This document shows positions 58 through 6,326 of a DNA stretch of 6,478 nt, in pieces (the stretch's first letter is position 1; each line of letters opens with the position of its first letter). The stretch covers positions 1 to 6,478 of the forward strand of contig JAPULM010000646.1 of NCBI GenBank assembly GCA_027294925.1. Reading direction: 5' to 3'. This stretch comes from a bacterium (GTDB taxonomy: Bacteria; Tectomicrobia; Entotheonellia; Entotheonellales; Entotheonellaceae). Position numbers and translations under genes: made by a program. The notes beneath the pieces are model-generated. The model was given only the letters and a program-made list of their open reading frames with translations. It did not search any database and was not told where the DNA came from.

Positions 58-63
58 AGGAGG
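58..63 (+). promoter_or_regulatory. Ribosome binding site of the UGSC selenoprotein gene
   Basis: AGGAGG lies 5 nt upstream of the ATG at 69, a near-ideal Shine-Dalgarno sequence. It fixes the start of the first gene and shows that the 109-codon stretch before the in-frame TGA is a translated gene rather than a chance open frame. No clear promoter is visible in the 57 nt before it. Confidence 0.85.
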
Positions 64-68
64 ACCCT

Positions 69-725
69 ATGGTTCAGCAAGCACTCACACTGACCATGCT
101 GTCACCGCTGCCGGTCTATCTCGACGAAGCAACCGACGGCATCCCTTTGGCACCTCGACCGGAGACCCTGAAAGGCCGTGTGGTTGGGCTGTTACCGAAC
201 TGGCGGCCATCGGCGATACAGATTCTGGAGGCACTGGGGAAGCTGCTTGAGCAACGCTACCAATTGCAGGCGGTGGTGATGGAACAGCCGGCCCGCGAAG
301 TGCCACAAAGCACCAGCGGTCTCATTGACACCATGGGAGAGACGCTGGATGACCTCGCCAGCCGGGTTGACGTGGTGATCACCGCCACCGGTGATTGAGG
401 ATCGTGCTCGACGTGGTGTAGCTACGTCACACCGGAACTTGAGAAGCGCGGCATTCCCACCGTCATGATTACCACCGATACCTTCACCAACTTTGCGCGC
501 CGCCTGGCGGCGACGCAGGGCTTTCCGTATGTCGTCATCGCGGAGACCCCGAATCCCATTCGGCAGTTGGACGAGGTCACCTTGCAGAAGCGGGTTCAGG
601 GCATGATCGATACCATCATCGAGGGCCTCACGCAGCCAGCGGACGTGATCCAGCGCCGCAATCAAAAGATCGCCGACGAGCAGATCCGACCCGCCGGTGT
701 CGTCCGTTCGGCATTGCCTGTCTAA
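69..725 (+). CDS. UGSC-family selenoprotein, read through an in-frame TGA (Sec110)
   Basis: Seen: an ATG frame with a strong RBS runs to TGA at 396-398 and continues in the same frame to TAA at 723-725. With TGA as selenocysteine the product has 218 residues. Sec110 starts the motif U-G-S-C (Cys113), followed by STWCSYVTPELEKRGIPTV (Cys117). Before it, residues 36-43 (GRVVGLLP) and 101-109 (DVVITATGD) look like beta strands of an alpha/beta fold. After it come TTDTF and the conserved-looking ETPNPI. No signal peptide or membrane segment is visible, so it is probably cytosolic. Known: a bacterial family carries the name UGSC (seleno)protein from this motif; its biochemical role is not established as far as I know. 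Inferred: Sec110 and Cys113 form a U-x-x-C redox centre. The alternative is a nonsense mutation or sequencing error, but the stop lies exactly at the family's Sec position and a SECIS-like hairpin follows. The gene at 840 probably belongs to the same operon. Confidence 0.9.
396..428 (+). promoter_or_regulatory. Selenocysteine UGA codon with candidate bacterial SECIS hairpin
   Basis: The UGA is at 396-398. After an 11-nt spacer, 410-416 (GACGUGG) pairs with 422-428 (CUACGUC) to give 7 bp including one G-U pair, with the 5-nt loop UGUAG at 417-421. The second loop base is G. Known: bacterial SECIS elements lie within the coding region just downstream of UGA, and the apical loop carries a G in its first two positions about 16-37 nt from the UGA. 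The E. coli fdhF minihelix has a similar 11-nt spacing. No bulged U like that in fdhF is obvious. A competing stem, 415-419 with 429-433 (GGUGU/ACACC), is also possible. SelB would bind this RNA and deliver Sec-tRNA. Confidence 0.7.
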
Positions 726-839: not shown

Positions 840-1856
840 GTGGCGCAAACACCTGTGCATCTGGAGTCGGCTTCAGCTGCAGAACTTATGGCACAGGCGT
901 ACGACTACGCCTATGATCAGGGTTGGACCGACGGGCTGCCCATCATTCCCGCCACACCGGAGATGGTACAGCGCTGCATCGCGGCATCTGGCCGTGACGC
1001 CGATGCGGTTATCGGGCTCATTCCACCGCGTAAGGGTCGCGCCACGGTAGAAGCCATCGCCACCAACGCGGTCATGGCTGGCTGCCGACCCGAGTACATG
1101 CCGGTCATCCTTGCGGCGCTCGACGGCCTTACCGACCCAAACTTCCCGCTGGAGTTTATGCAGGTGACCACCAACCCGATGACCCCCTTGCTCCTGATCA
1201 ACGGACCCGTTCGGCATCAGCTCGACATCAACTACGGGAGCGGCTGTCTGGGTCCAGGGTGGCGTGCCAATGCGACCATCGGCCGCGCCATCCGTCTTGT
1301 CCTACAAAACCTCGGGGGTGCCCTGCCAGGGGTCTACTCCAAGGCCAGCTTTAGTTCACCCCTACGCTACACTTATGTGTGTGGCGAGTATGAGGAAGAG
1401 AACCCTTGGACGCCCTTCCATGTCGATCGCGGCTTCAACCCAGACGACAGTACAGTCACGGTGTTCAAAGCATCCAACTACTGTAACATCTCCGGCGGCG
1501 AAGGGGTTGGCGCGGACGAAATCCTGCGGCATATCGCAACCAACATGCCCCCAATGTATGGCGGCGGCGATGGTTCACTCTTGCTGCTCGGCATTAACCA
1601 TGCGCGGTCGCTCCACGAAGCCGGCCTCAGCAAGCGTGCTATTCAGGAAAAGCTCTGGGCCTACGCGACGCTCCCAGAGGAGATGTTCGCGGCCGACTTT
1701 GCCGTCATGGAACAGGCCGCAGGCCGAGGACATGCGGGGGTGCTGCAGCGCACCAAGAGCCCGGACGAGATCTACCTCGCCGTCGCCGGTGGCCCCGGAC
1801 CCCAGGACGTCTACATTGCGGCAGGATTGCCACAAACCCGGTTGATTCAGAGTTAA
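840..1856 (+). CDS. Conserved protein of unknown function, likely UGSC partner
   Basis: I do not assign a function. The 338-residue product starts at GTG with a strong RBS and ends at TAA. It has no signal peptide or membrane segment. Distinctive stretches are DQGWTDGLPIIPATP (26-40), NPMTPLLLINGPVR (112-125), the Gly/Cys-rich NYGSGCLGPGWRANATIGRA (131-150), EEENPWTPFHVDRGF (185-199) and YCNISGGEG (214-222). There are five cysteines, at 46, 82, 136, 181 and 215. From memory, proteins with the WTDGLPxIP start are a recurring uncharacterised family, and I have an impression, not checkable here, that they occur near UGSC proteins. The dense Gly/Asn/Pro motifs suggest a real active site rather than a structural protein. 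The 114-nt spacing and shared strand suggest an operon with the selenoprotein, so it may be the substrate-binding or catalytic partner of the U-x-x-C redox centre. It is not a recognisable reductase: no Rossmann GxGxxG or FAD motif is apparent. Confidence 0.85.
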   Translation: MAQTPVHLESASAAELMAQAYDYAYDQGWTDGLPIIPATPEMVQRCIAASGRDADAVIGLIPPRKGRATVEAIATNAVMAGCRPEYMPVILAALDGLTDPNFPLEFMQVTTNPMTPLLLINGPVRHQLDINYGSGCLGPGWRANATIGRAIRLVLQNLGGALPGVYSKASFSSPLRYTYVCGEYEEENPWTPFHVDRGFNPDDSTVTVFKASNYCNISGGEGVGADEILRHIATNMPPMYGGGDGSLLLLGINHARSLHEAGLSKRAIQEKLWAYATLPEEMFAADFAVMEQAAGRGHAGVLQRTKSPDEIYLAVAGGPGPQDVYIAAGLPQTRLIQS

Positions 1857-1994: not shown

Positions 1995-2570
1995 TTGAAA
2001 AGGCTTATTGTAGGGATATCCGGCGCCAGTGGTGTGATTTATGGTATTCGTTTGCTCGAAGTGTTACAGAATGTAGAGGACGTCGCCACCCATCTGGTGA
2101 TGAGTAACGCCGCCAAGCGCACGGTCCAGTTGGAAACGGATTACACCATTGAAGATATAGAGACCCTGACTGATAAAGTCTACAAATTTGGTGATATTGC
2201 CGCTTCCATCTCTTCCGGATCTTTTCAAACCATGGGCATGGTGATTATTCCCTGTTCGATAAAAACGTTATCAGGTGTCGCCAGTTCATATAGTGATAAT
2301 CTTCTCCTGCGTGCGGCTGATGTGGTGCTCAAAGAACGGCGCAAATTGGTGTTGGTGCTGCGTGAAACCCCCCTGCACCTGGGACATGTCAGGCTGATGA
2401 TGCAGGCGATTGAAATGGGTGCTATCATCGCACCACCGGTGCCGGCCTTTTATCATCGCCCGAAAACAGTGGATGATATTATCAACCAAAGCGTCGGTCG
2501 TATTTTCGACTTACTCGATATTACGTTGCCCGAAGATTTGTTCCGACGCTGGCAAGGCCCTGAAGACTAG
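1995..2570 (+). CDS. ubiX: Flavin prenyltransferase, UbiX/Pad1 family
   Basis: The 191-residue protein matches UbiX length and layout. Known: UbiX joins a dimethylallyl group to FMN to make prenylated FMN, the cofactor of UbiD-type decarboxylases in ubiquinone synthesis or aromatic acid metabolism. Seen: the flavin-binding start GISGASG (7-13), SSGSF (73-77), the hallmark MVIIPCSIKTLSGVA (82-96), LKERRKLVLVLRETPLHLGH (112-131) with the conserved Arg and Glu, and PAFYHRPKTVDDI (150-162) with the conserved Tyr. The protein should be cytosolic and form a dodecamer like its relatives. The start is TTG. The gene looks more AT-rich than its neighbours, with many ATT, GAT and TTT codons, which may point to a separate origin. 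No ubiD homologue is in the window, so the partner decarboxylase and exact pathway are unknown. A BsdB/VdcB-like subunit of a hydroxyarylic acid decarboxylase is an alternative name for the same fold. Confidence 0.95.
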   Translation: MKRLIVGISGASGVIYGIRLLEVLQNVEDVATHLVMSNAAKRTVQLETDYTIEDIETLTDKVYKFGDIAASISSGSFQTMGMVIIPCSIKTLSGVASSYSDNLLLRAADVVLKERRKLVLVLRETPLHLGHVRLMMQAIEMGAIIAPPVPAFYHRPKTVDDIINQSVGRIFDLLDITLPEDLFRRWQGPED

Positions 2571-2808
2571 GTAGGTAATACCCTCTCCGTTTCCGCCAGG
2601 CGGTCACCTGATGTTCGCTTGTCCTGCATATCAACCTATTCCCGCTGCCCCCGACCAAACATTGTCGGGATGGCGACGCGATGCAGCTGGCGGTGGAAGG
2701 GGGCAACTACGAGGCGGCAGAAAAAGAGGACACCCAGGAGTAAAATCCGGTTAGTAGGTATTGTGTCCTCATCATTCGAGACAATCAATTTCTGTGGATG
2801 ACAACCCT
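2571..2808. other. Gap between convergent ubiX and panB with inverted repeats
   Basis: No convincing gene is seen. Two perfect inverted repeats are present: CCCGAC (2650-2655) with GTCGGG (2664-2669) around an 8-nt loop, and GAGGACAC (2726-2733) with GTGTCCTC (2763-2770) 29 nt apart. Neither is followed by a T tract on either strand, so they are not classical intrinsic terminators, although the position between convergent genes would suit a terminator. A 20-codon frame (ATG 2681 to TAA 2743) encodes MQLAVEGGNYEAAEKEDTQE, which reads like protein but has no RBS. Confidence 0.5.
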
Positions 2809-3702
2809 CTACAGGTTGCTGACCGCCGCTTCTGTTGCATTGACCGCCTGCAGAAAGAGATCGAGTTCCTCGTCCGGCATGCTGTACGTGTGCTCGGCGG
2901 CGGGGAAATGGCCGTGGCGCACATCATCTCGGTATTCTGTCAGCGTCTGGCTAATGATGTCGCCAACATTGGCATACTGCTTGACAAACTTGGCCACACA
3001 ACCATCAAGTAAGGTCAGCAGATCATGATACACCAGCACCTGGCCATCGCAGCCAGCGCCGGCCCCAATACCAATGGTCGGAATGTGGAGTCGCTGGCTA
3101 ATCAATTCCGCTACAGGCGCCGGGATAGCCTCCAGGACCACGGCATAGCAACCGGCCGCCTCAAGTTCCAGGGCGTCATCAAACAGACGTTGGGCAGCCG
3201 CAGCGGTTTTGCCCTGTACCCTGTACCCACCCAGCTTAGAGACCGATTGTGGGGTCAGGCCAATATGCCCCATGACCGGGATACCTGCATTAACAATGGC
3301 GCGTACGGTGGGCGCTGCTTCGCGTCCACCTTCGAGTTTGACCGAATCCATACTACCCTGTTTGAGAATGCGTCCGGCATTTTGGATCGCCTCGGCGGTG
3401 CTCGCCTGATAAGACATGAACGGCAGGTCGCCCACCAGATGGGCATAGCGGGCCCCACGTGCCGTGGCCCGACAGTGATGTAGCATGTCGTCCATGGTCA
3501 CCGGCACTGTACTGTCGTAGCCCAACATCACCATGCCCAACGAATCACCCACCAGAATCATGTCAATACCGGCCCGGTCGACCAGCAGGCCGGATGAATA
3601 GTCATAAGCAGTCAACATGGTGATGGGTTCTCTGCGTTCTTTTTTAGTTTGTATGGTCAGGATGGTGACCTTACAGCGCTTGTCACTTGGATATTTACTC
3701 AC
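2809..3702 (-). CDS. panB: 3-methyl-2-oxobutanoate hydroxymethyltransferase (ketopantoate hydroxymethyltransferase)
   Basis: PanB transfers a one-carbon unit from 5,10-methylene-tetrahydrofolate to 2-oxoisovalerate to give ketopantoate, the first committed step to pantothenate and CoA, in the cytosol. From the GTG at 3702 the protein has 297 residues, slightly longer than the usual 260-280. Seen in this numbering: MLTAYDYSSG (29-38), the metal and substrate site VGDSLGMVMLGYDST (51-65; Asp53, Ser54), VGDLPFMSYQAS (90-101; Asp92), VKLEGG (121-126; Lys122, Glu124), MGHIGLTPQSVSKLGGYRVQ (144-163), VLEAIPAP (189-196; Glu191, matching the catalytic glutamate) and IGIGAGAGCDGQVLVYHD (210-227). All expected catalytic residues are present. 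An in-frame extension to TTG/ATG near 3741 has no RBS, whereas GTG has a perfect one, so GTG is preferred. The marR gene lies 87 nt upstream on the same strand. No panC or panD is in the window. Confidence 0.97.
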   Translation of the reverse strand: MSKYPSDKRCKVTILTIQTKKERREPITMLTAYDYSSGLLVDRAGIDMILVGDSLGMVMLGYDSTVPVTMDDMLHHCRATARGARYAHLVGDLPFMSYQASTAEAIQNAGRILKQGSMDSVKLEGGREAAPTVRAIVNAGIPVMGHIGLTPQSVSKLGGYRVQGKTAAAAQRLFDDALELEAAGCYAVVLEAIPAPVAELISQRLHIPTIGIGAGAGCDGQVLVYHDLLTLLDGCVAKFVKQYANVGDIISQTLTEYRDDVRHGHFPAAEHTYSMPDEELDLFLQAVNATEAAVSNL

Positions 3703-3707
3703 GCGAT

Positions 3708-3714
3708 CCTCCTC
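3708..3714 (-). promoter_or_regulatory. Ribosome binding site of panB, decides the GTG start
   Basis: On the minus strand GAGGAGG reads from 3714 to 3708, then 5 nt, then GTG at 3702. It lies inside the coding part of the longer in-frame extension (to 3741), which has no such site, so it argues for the shorter protein. Confidence 0.85.
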
Positions 3715-3745
3715 GTAAGGCAGCCTAATGTCAAACATCAATTGG

Positions 3746-3764
3746 CGGTTCGCTCATCGAACCG
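3746..3764 (-). repeat. Perfect hairpin in the marR-panB gap
   Basis: CGGTTCG and CGAACCG form a perfect 7-bp inverted repeat around a 5-nt loop, between the end of marR and the start of panB. No T tract follows on the minus strand. It may be a processing or partial-attenuation hairpin in a marR-panB transcript, or an operator for panB. Confidence 0.45.
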
Positions 3765-3789
3765 TATCGATAATTGCCGTTCTTAGCGC

Positions 3790-4248
3790 TTAGCTTTCAG
3801 CCGCCACGCGCAGTCCAACTTTTCGGCACAGACGGGCTAACGTATCCTGCTCCTCTGACGTCAGAATGCTGAATTCCTCCATAACGATGCCAACGTGGCG
3901 GGGAAAGATCTCCTGGATGAGTTGCGCTCCGGCGTCGGTTAACTGCACCACCATAAAGCGGCGATCCGCGTCGTCACGTTCGCGGCATACGAAATCAAGC
4001 TTGACCAGATTATCGATCACAAAGGTGAGATTGGCATTGCTTTTTAGCATCTTGCCGGCCAGTTCGTTCTGGTGTAGGGGGCCCAGATGATGCAACATCT
4101 CCAACACACTAAACTGACTTGGGGTCAGCCGCACACTGGCCAGATGCTGATGGACACGGCTGAGCACGGTCTCCGCCGCCCGACTTAGCTTCACATAGGT
4201 GTCCAGGGCGCGTTTCTCAGGCTCGGTGCCGTTGTATTGGGTCGCCAT
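3790..4248 (-). CDS. MarR-family transcriptional regulator
   Basis: A 152-residue winged-helix regulator of normal MarR length. Seen in numbering from the ATG at 4248: an N-terminal dimerisation helix (about 12-38), the helix-turn-helix region LTPSQFSVLEMLHHLGPLHQ (41-60) with NELAGKMLKSNANLTFVIDN (61-80) holding the recognition helix, the wing and family signature DDADRRFMVVQLTDAGAQL (92-110), then C-terminal dimerisation helices. Cys88 lies near the wing and Cys141 near the C-terminus; this is not the N-terminal reactive Cys of OhrR, so peroxide sensing is not implied. The track-independent start choice is ATG, because AAAGG (4259-4255) lies 6 nt before it, whereas the in-frame TTG at 4254 and GTG at 4251 are too close to that site. 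Palindromes just upstream suggest autorepression. The ligand is unknown; possible targets are itself, panB downstream and the + strand fusion gene beyond the operator. Confidence 0.93.
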   Translation of the reverse strand: MATQYNGTEPEKRALDTYVKLSRAAETVLSRVHQHLASVRLTPSQFSVLEMLHHLGPLHQNELAGKMLKSNANLTFVIDNLVKLDFVCRERDDADRRFMVVQLTDAGAQLIQEIFPRHVGIVMEEFSILTSEEQDTLARLCRKVGLRVAAES

Positions 4249-4274
4249 CACCAACCTTTCGGATGGAATTAAAC

Positions 4275-4598: not shown

Positions 4599-6326
4599 AT
4601 GAATAAGCAGCTCTCGCCCGAAACGTTGGCCGCGCAAGCCCTCGGCGATATTGATTCGGCATCCGGGGCGATGGTACCGCCGCTCCATCCGTCGACCACC
4701 TATGAGCAACATGCGGACGGGACCTACCATGCAGGCCGTGTTTATACCCGGGCTGACAACCCGACCTACGATACAGCCGAGCGCCTCCTTGCCACACTTG
4801 AGAATGGGGTCGATTGCATCCTCTTTGCTTCTGGTAATGCCGCTGCTACTGCGGTGTTCCAGTCATTGCTCCCCGGCGACCATGTCATTGTGGCCCGGAT
4901 TCTCTATTGGGGTATCCGGAAGTGGTTGGCTGAGTTTGCGGTTACCTGGGGTCTCGACGTCGAATTTGTCGAGACCACTGACCTTGCCGCGCTGTCGGCT
5001 GCCATCCGTCCGGGGCGAACCCGGCTACTCTGGCTAGAGACACCGGCCAACCCGACATGGGAAATCACCGATCTTGCAGCAGCAGCCGAGATCGCTCACG
5101 CGGCTGACGTGCGGGTGGTTGTCGACAGTACCGTGGCCACGCCGGTACTCACTCGGCCAATCGAATTCGGTGCCGACCTCGTGGTGCATTCGGCTACCAA
5201 ATATTTGAACGGCCATAGCGACGTCTTAGCCGGCGCCGTCGTAACGGCACGCCATGACCCGTTTTGGGAGCGGCTCCGTTCGTGGAGGCGAAATGCTGGC
5301 GTTGTGCTGGGCCCGTTTGAGGCCTGGCTGCTGCAGCGGGGGATGCGAACCCTGTTTGTTCGAGTGCGCCGCTCGTCGGAGACGGCCCTCGCACTGGCGC
5401 GTCATTTCCACGCCCATCCGGCCCTGAAGGCGGTTCTCTATCCGGGTCTGCCGTCGCATCCCGAGCACCAGCTCGCGGCGCGCCAGATGACCGGCGGGTT
5501 TGGTGGCATGCTATCGATCCGGGTGATGGGTGGCGCTGCGCAAGCCCTGGCCGTCGCCGCCGCTGTACAGGTGTTCAAACGGGCCACATCGCTCGGCGGA
5601 GTGGAGAGCCTCATCGAACACCGTAGCAGTACCGAGGGGCCATCATCGCCAGTACCGGATGACCTGCTGCGCCTGTCTATCGGCCTGGAAAGCGTCGAGG
5701 ATCTGGTGGCCGATCTGGAGGTTGCACTCGAGGCAGTAGAACAGAGGGGCATGTCACCCACACCGCTGGCAGCTGAAAAGTCTGCAACGTTGCCGACACC
5801 GTCCGACGTCGCCGCCGCGGTCGAGGCTGCAATCGAGCGCAGTGTGGCGCCATCTATTATCGCGCGTGGTGGTGCGGTGCGTGTCGTCTCAGTCAATGAT
5901 GGCATTGTGACGTTGGAGGCAAGTGGGTCACCTGGTGCGATCCTGCCCGTGACGGCCAATATTGAGACGTTTCTTCGCACAGCAGTGGCTGAGGTGACCG
6001 CGGTGCGTGTGGTATGGCCTAAGAAAGAGGTGACGTCGGCCGGCGAGCCAGGCAATGTCGTCGAGCGTGTTCAGAAGATCCTTGACGATGAAGTCAACCC
6101 GGCGATCGCGGCCCACCGAGGGCGGGTGTCCCTGGTCAATGTGACGGCTGGTCGAGTACAAATCCGTCTCGAGGGCGGTTGCCAGGGGTGTAATCTGGCC
6201 GCGGTGACCATCCGGCAAGGTATCGAGCCGTTATTGCGGGCGCGTCTTGACGATGTTGTGGCGGTAGTCGATGTGACCGACCATGAAGCAGGGACAGAGC
6301 CTTTTTTTTCGCCGTCAAAACGCTGA
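4599..6326 (+). CDS. Fusion: Cys/Met-metabolism PLP enzyme with two NifU-type domains
   Basis: The 575-residue protein has three parts. Residues 1 to about 383 are a complete fold-type I Cys/Met-metabolism PLP enzyme (cystathionine gamma-synthase/lyase family): YTRADNPTYDTAE (49-61), FASGNAAATAVF (76-87), LETPANPTWEITD (146-158), VVVDSTVATP (173-182), SATKYLNGHSDVLAGAV (198-214) with PLP-lysine K201, SLGGVESLIEHRSS (331-344) and LLRLSIGLES (356-365). Residues 401-475 resemble a NifU C-terminal domain, but the Cys-pair site reads SGSPGAIL. Residues 484-562 are a canonical NifU domain, with GGCQGCNLAAVTIRQGIE (526-543; Cys528, Cys531). Known: PLP enzymes of this family cleave or form C-S bonds, and NifU/Nfu CxxC domains carry Fe-S clusters. 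Inferred: sulfide from Cys, homocysteine or cystathionine is passed to the attached scaffold. Substrate cannot be told from sequence. Unusual points: LYWGIR replaces the common LYGGTY loop, and VDST replaces VDNT. The last codons hold a T8 run. The RBS and ATG are strong. Confidence 0.93.
   Translation: MNKQLSPETLAAQALGDIDSASGAMVPPLHPSTTYEQHADGTYHAGRVYTRADNPTYDTAERLLATLENGVDCILFASGNAAATAVFQSLLPGDHVIVARILYWGIRKWLAEFAVTWGLDVEFVETTDLAALSAAIRPGRTRLLWLETPANPTWEITDLAAAAEIAHAADVRVVVDSTVATPVLTRPIEFGADLVVHSATKYLNGHSDVLAGAVVTARHDPFWERLRSWRRNAGVVLGPFEAWLLQRGMRTLFVRVRRSSETALALARHFHAHPALKAVLYPGLPSHPEHQLAARQMTGGFGGMLSIRVMGGAAQALAVAAAVQVFKRATSLGGVESLIEHRSSTEGPSSPVPDDLLRLSIGLESVEDLVADLEVALEAVEQRGMSPTPLAAEKSATLPTPSDVAAAVEAAIERSVAPSIIARGGAVRVVSVNDGIVTLEASGSPGAILPVTANIETFLRTAVAEVTAVRVVWPKKEVTSAGEPGNVVERVQKILDDEVNPAIAAHRGRVSLVNVTAGRVQIRLEGGCQGCNLAAVTIRQGIEPLLRARLDDVVAVVDVTDHEAGTEPFFSPSKR
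6180..6191 (+). other. CxxC cluster-binding motif of the distal NifU domain
   Basis: These bases encode Cys528-Gln-Gly-Cys531 in the setting GGCQGCN, the signature of Nfu/NifU C-terminal domains, where the two cysteines of each monomer usually share a [4Fe-4S] cluster across a dimer. It is the only Cys pair in the 575-residue protein; the sole other Cys is Cys73 in the PLP domain. Confidence 0.85.

Follow-up and report, generated by a model that had tools for sequence, protein, structure and literature searches.

A UGSC-family gene with an in-frame UGA predicted to encode selenocysteine, and the partner gene found beside its relatives

Results

Gene content of the locus

The window (the whole stretch of DNA analysed, 6,478 nt) begins with a gene of the UGSC selenoprotein family, preceded by a likely ribosome binding site and followed by a gene of an unnamed family, here called the partner (Table 1). 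Beyond this pair, positions 1995–4254 hold genes for a UbiX-type flavin prenyltransferase, PanB and a MarR regulator. The 575-aa product of positions 4599–6326 combines a Cys/Met-metabolism PLP enzyme (PF01053) with a C-terminal NifU domain (PF01106), an unusual-looking fusion.

Table 1. Coordinates of the features at the locus, in window positions.
Feature	Position	Strand	Remarks
AGGAGG, likely ribosome binding site of the UGSC gene	58..63	+	5 nt 5' of ATG 69-71
UGSC-family selenoprotein gene	69..725	+	218 codons, TAA 723-725
In-frame UGA, residue 110, predicted selenocysteine codon	396..398	+	TGA in 24/24 loci; Cys in 120/120 listed homologues
Cys113 codon, second residue of the UxxC pair	405..407	+	invariant in alignment A4
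SECIS-type hairpin	410..428	+	8-bp stem, 3-nt loop GUA 418-420, 19 nt past UGA, -8.9 kcal/mol
Cys117 codon	417..419	+	kept in own subfamily and in 115/120 Cys homologues; absent from some paralogues
Partner gene, 338 aa, unnamed family	840..1856	+	GTG start, AGGAGG 826-831; family found near UGSC genes
UbiX-type flavin prenyltransferase	1995..2570	+	gene after partner

Reading frame and family membership

By standard translation the first gene falls apart into ORFs of 109 aa (69–398) and 86 aa (465–725). The preliminary description of this DNA, made from the letters alone, had joined them into one gene interrupted by a UGA, and this was borne out: the two ORFs lie in a single frame, readthrough of TGA 396–398 gives a 218-aa product with UGSC at residues 110–113, and the next stop is the TAA at 723–725. 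The sequence was also described as protein-like on both sides of the TGA, in agreement with a PF24696 match that spans it (residues 12–188) and with dN far below dS on either side. In the comparison with relative L005, dN was 0.227 and dS 1.81 before the TGA, and 0.243 and 1.32 after it, while the amino acid identity of the window gene to three relatives was 0.71–0.75 before and 0.64–0.67 after. The readthrough frame is more than chance.

The assignment to the UGSC family made in the preliminary description was confirmed by profile searches. The 218-aa product scored 138.9 bits with PF24696, well over the gathering cut-off of 25 (E 2.5e-40); it stayed below the cut-off of the narrower NCBIfam equivalog UGSC_fam, NF041046 (105.3 bits against 125, E 2.7e-30). 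The motif U/C-G-[SAGT]-C, with Sec or Cys first, is present in the window gene and in 65 of the 67 UGSC profile matches across the loci. The TGA falls, as originally noted, exactly on the Sec/Cys position that names the family. The gene is therefore a further member of an already known selenoprotein family, on record since at least 2008 (PMC2398784). With the UGSC-containing selenoprotein of that GOS survey and with PF24696 it shares the whole domain, the U/C-G-S-C motif, a Sec codon at the same residue and a SECIS-type hairpin directly 3' of it. It differs in belonging to a TGDUGSCSTWCS subfamily, in its score under the NF041046 cut-off, and in having its partner as a separate downstream gene.

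Residue 110 in the relatives

Genomic relatives were retrieved by a pattern scan of contigs for two conserved peptides encoded 5' of the TGA, so that the loci were not chosen for the TGA itself. The scan yielded 24 loci, mostly from Betaproteobacteria MAGs, and the aligned codon was TGA in every one of them; TGA was also found at this codon in UGSC paralogues. In 22 of the 24 loci the next in-frame stop lay 108–109 codons past the TGA (109 in the window), and in L022 the frame was open up to the contig end. In L027, otherwise a close UGSC relative, a TAA occurred 44 codons past the TGA, which suggests a frameshift, an assembly error or decay. Among plasmids, three of 14 matches were examined at the codon: one from Acidovorax carried TGA, and two haloarchaeal ones carried TGT and TGC.

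A search with a Cys protein of the haloarchaeon Natrinema returned 150 homologues, of which 120 were listed, and residue 110 was Cys in all 120. Since the seed was itself a Cys protein and standard-code protein databases cannot contain full-length Sec proteins, this figure shows only that the alternative residue is Cys. The homologues thus have U or C at this position, as had been anticipated. Besides a lack of sel genes in the genome, the preliminary description had named two findings that would tell against a selenoprotein. One of them, unrelated residues at position 110 with nothing conserved afterwards, is the opposite of what was found, as the codon is TGA or Cys and the frame continues. 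The other, homologues ending at residue 109, did turn up, in 16 of 22 database homologues (21 aligned); the observation stands, yet not its force, because gene callers stop at TGA and the DNA has TGA in 24 of 24 loci, which makes these stubs an artefact. The suspicion that automated annotation would truncate the gene was accordingly well founded: pipelines halve this gene, and most of the close relatives found are database stubs.

These stubs, the split made by gene callers and the broken frame of L027 are what could be said for two short genes, or for a pseudogene whose frame was broken at 396–398, either through a nonsense mutation or through faulty sequencing. The same TGA in all 24 loci and in paralogues, the 108–109 codons of frame behind it in 22 of them, the low dN relative to dS on both sides, the Cys of other homologues and a covarying hairpin immediately 3' (see below) all stand against that reading, to which we give almost no probability. 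It is refuted by a TGA that is conserved and followed by an open frame.

A SECIS-type hairpin after the UGA

Bacterial SECIS elements have been described in section 5 of a recent review (PMC13188914) by a loop of 3–9 nt with a G in its first two positions, a stem of 4–16 bp, a distance of 16–37 nt from the UGA and an MFE of at most -7.5. Such elements can be specific to their host. The hairpin of the window (Table 1) lies within all of these bounds, as do 16.75% of the synonymous shuffles of the window. Only 0.45% of 2000 synonymous shuffles were as stable over the hairpin stretch (410–428), while the stability of the whole 48-nt stretch was unremarkable (12.5% of shuffles as low). No Rfam family reached its gathering score within the window.

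The signal was clearer across the family. Of 62 TGA-type genes, 61 had a hairpin within the published bounds, against 25% of 3100 synonymous shuffles and against 3 to 35 of the 62 genes at eight other sites. Stability relative to synonymous shuffles peaked at the TGA (mean z -1.37 ± 0.17), with values of -0.76 and -0.67 in the two overlapping segments and of -0.38 to +0.54 elsewhere. Among 28 sequences, no two of them alike in the hairpin stretch, each of the eight base pairs had changed on both sides and 87.9% of the cells still paired, giving a covariation score of 0.521 compared with 0.181 for shuffled and at most 0.188 for slid alignments. Because so many shuffles of the window also pass the published criteria, it is this covariation that carries the weight for a SECIS element.

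Selenocysteine machinery and decoding of the UGA

SelB was found over its cut-off in 18 of the 20 host genomes of the 24 loci, compared with 2 of 14 control genomes. A tRNA-Sec over its cut-off was found in 19 of the 20 host genomes, with 72.7–80.0 bits; five of the 14 controls also passed this cut-off of 47. In the bacterial family of genome G004, a family of uncultured Betaproteobacteria, UGSC was present in 74 of 74 genomes and SelA over its cut-off in 67 of them. In a class-level sample of 274 genomes, three had UGSC and 12 had SelA over its cut-off, the two occurring together in two of the three UGSC genomes. In an order-level sample of 399 genomes, SelA (E<=1e-50) accompanied UGSC in 39 of 41 genomes, compared with 70 of the 358 others (Fisher p 1.6e-22, ignoring kinship). 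The 41 are genomes with UGSC over its cut-off; there were 44 at E<=0.001, and the three weak ones were counted as without. SelA was missing from one of the three UGSC genomes of the class sample (G155) and from two of the 41 of the order sample, which may be incomplete genomes.

Alternatively, the genome might use TGA as a sense codon, for example for Trp under code 4. The database protein P0002 of JGI has Trp at the UGA position, which suggests that its metagenome genes were called with code 4. Within the window, however, the gene at 4599–6326 ends in TGA shortly past its NifU domain, and TGG is used 16 times across six genes; none of the 120 homologues listed for the Natrinema protein has Trp there, all having Cys instead, and a SECIS-type hairpin follows the codon. 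On these grounds a sense reading was disfavoured, and we consider it extremely improbable. The original reading of a selenoprotein gene in which UGA stands for Sec is supported, and Sec is almost certainly inserted at UGA 396–398 in the organism of the window.

A partner gene that accompanies UGSC

Neither Pfam nor NCBIfam gave a match for the partner protein itself, and at least 7917 homologues were found among 7999 candidates scored. One of its four closest homologues comes from Candidatus Entotheonellaceae bacterium PAL068K (85%), and its close relatives share the conserved motifs MAGC and GCLGPGxRANATIGRA. Its structural model reached a pLDDT of 85.1 and a pTM of 0.88, and no convincing counterpart was found among the solved structures of the PDB.

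A partner-family gene lay within 2.5 kb of 61 of 65 UGSC genes, always on the same strand, downstream in 37 cases and upstream in 24. A Cys-type UGSC paired with a partner occurs in the haloarchaeon Natrinema zhouii (L002). The 65 represent 64 distinct genes, as L007 and L039 are one gene, and exclude the second copy of L021 and L036, which are without the motif searched for. Of the four UGSC genes with no partner, three had only 36–405 nt remaining on one side, and L046 was an apparent real miss. Conversely, UGSC was nearby in 65 of 65 cases of the partner in these loci, which had been chosen around UGSC. The class sample is for this reason the fairer test of linkage: the partner (E<=1e-10) occurred in three of 274 genomes, exactly the three with UGSC, and nine of nine partner places adjoined a UGSC place. 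In G004, where 7 of 21 candidates were scored, one partial UGSC place had no partner among the matches listed.

In five loci (L003, L012, L017, L020, and L037) UGSC and the partner were fused in frame, and L036, in which U-S-S-C replaces the motif, looked fused to it too. The UGSC/Unknown_1 fusion reported in 2008 (PMC2398784) likewise joins UGSC to a conserved domain without assigned function, which may or may not be the partner described here. That UGSC lies nearly always beside this gene suggests a two-part selenium enzyme, and the UGSC protein and the 338-aa partner probably form a physical complex. One of the fusions, UGSC(TGA)-partner in L003, belongs to Acidovorax sp. T1, where a conjugative IncP plasmid carries it on a stretch with IS1071; the annotation reduces this fused gene to a 291-bp hypothetical gene.

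Predicted fold and distant relationship to PrdB and GrdB

An AlphaFold model of UGSC from 27 sequences (pLDDT 83.5, pTM 0.82) showed strands and helices alternating in the flavodoxin/Rossmann manner, with Sec just before a helix at 111–126. Its top structural neighbours were B12-binding and other alpha/beta domains (alpha/beta sandwiches). As far as a model can, this speaks for a flavodoxin/Rossmann-like fold and against the thioredoxin-like one suggested in the 2008 report (PMC2398784).

When 27 UGSC proteins were scanned against NCBIfam at E<=10, PrdB was matched by 26 (best 4.4e-5), GrdB by 23, GrdF by 20 and GrdH by 13. Among 20 Cys homologues, GrdB was matched by eight (best 4.4e-5) and PrdB by none. 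The window protein itself gave weak matches to PrdB (E 0.0027 over 38 residues) and GrdB (E 0.002 over 61), far under the curated cut-offs (17.2 against 300 bits for TIGR04483; 17.1 against 602.2 bits for TIGR01917). For GrdB a review gives the motif UxxCxxC, which is absent from the window protein; UxxCxxxC stands in its place. The distant match to PrdB (TIGR04483) and GrdB (TIGR01917/01918, GrdF, GrdH) falls around UxxC, at UGSC residues of about 96–157. Judged from sequence comparison, UGSC is distantly related to the PrdB/GrdB selenoprotein B, yet lies outside those families. PrdB and GrdB are Sec subunits that work with other subunits, as is proposed here for UGSC. When 43 partner proteins were scanned against NCBIfam and Pfam at E<=10, no family of the PrdA or GrdE type came up. 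The UGSC relatives sampled here come from Betaproteobacteria, haloarchaea and a few others; clostridia were outside the sample.

Another reading accepts Sec and regards the protein as the general thiol-disulphide oxidoreductase of thioredoxin-like fold suggested in 2008, with the partner as a mere neighbour. The UxxC motif fits it, as do weak matches to Redoxin in six of 27 members (best E 0.0085) and to protein disulphide oxidoreductase in five of 27 (best 0.0071). We regard it as unlikely, since the predicted fold and its structural neighbours are of the alpha/beta kinds named above, stronger matches, and in more members, are obtained with the PrdB/GrdB models, and the partner gene tracks UGSC and is sometimes fused to it.

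Discussion

A proposed mode of action

Computation established the UGSC membership, the exchange of Sec and Cys, the SECIS-type element, the linkage to the partner and the distant kinship with PrdB/GrdB. The locus is very probably best explained by a UGSC selenoprotein gene with hairpin-guided Sec decoding. SelB and tRNA-Sec would insert selenocysteine at UGA 396–398 under the direction of the hairpin at 410–428. The 218-aa product would form a predicted alpha/beta (flavodoxin/Rossmann-like) domain in which the Sec of U-G-S-C starts a helix, and most likely acts jointly with the 338-aa product of the adjoining partner gene. By analogy with the PrdB/GrdB subunits, Sec might serve as the nucleophile in a reductive cleavage and Cys113 might resolve the selenyl intermediate. 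This reductase chemistry is put forward tentatively, at slightly less than an even chance. The substrate is perhaps an organic acid, an idea prompted by the TctC receptors and MmgE/PrpD genes that occur nearby in some relatives. It is an equally tentative possibility that UGSC and its partner represent a new class of two-subunit, sometimes fused, selenoenzymes distantly built on the PrdB/GrdB selenoprotein B domain, with tens of substrate-specific paralogues per genome in uncultured Betaproteobacteria and a partner of new fold.

UGSC is given without a function in the text of a 2026 review (PMC13188914). The correct reading of the gene exposes both the tracking partner and the distant link to the proline and glycine reductases, and these two give the family a concrete functional hypothesis. 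The partner gene, the kinship with PrdB/GrdB and the expansion of paralogues described below are worth following up.

Expansion of UGSC paralogues

In the 74 genomes of the family of G004, at least 1081 UGSC places were counted at E<=0.001, with a median of 11 and a range of 1–40 per genome; at most 40 candidates were scored per genome, and a gene split over contigs would count twice. In G012, where all 60 candidates were scored, there were 40 UGSC matches. Every UGSC place listed in the class, order and G004-family samples and in G012 holds one TGA, whose position was confirmed in the fetched loci. As many as 40 such places occurred in single genomes of the G004 family, G012 and G330 among them, so that one family of uncultured Betaproteobacteria carries as many as 40 UGSC genes in a genome. 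By comparison, a table of a 2016 survey gives 26 and 33 for UGSC, taken here as organisms and genes (PMC5029168), and the largest selenoproteomes in print, as quoted in the text of the 2026 review, comprise 57 and 63 genes (PMC13188914). These numbers may be rivalled by lineages that carry UGSC in tens of copies, and if UGSC and its partner are indeed a new enzyme class, catabolism in those Betaproteobacteria would have selenium as a major cofactor.

Three of the loci (L020, L021, and L025, from genomes G016, G017, and G019) carry the labels Bordetella parapertussis and Chitinophaga pinensis. These labels look wrong, as the three genomes fall in the same 74-genome family of uncultured Betaproteobacteria.
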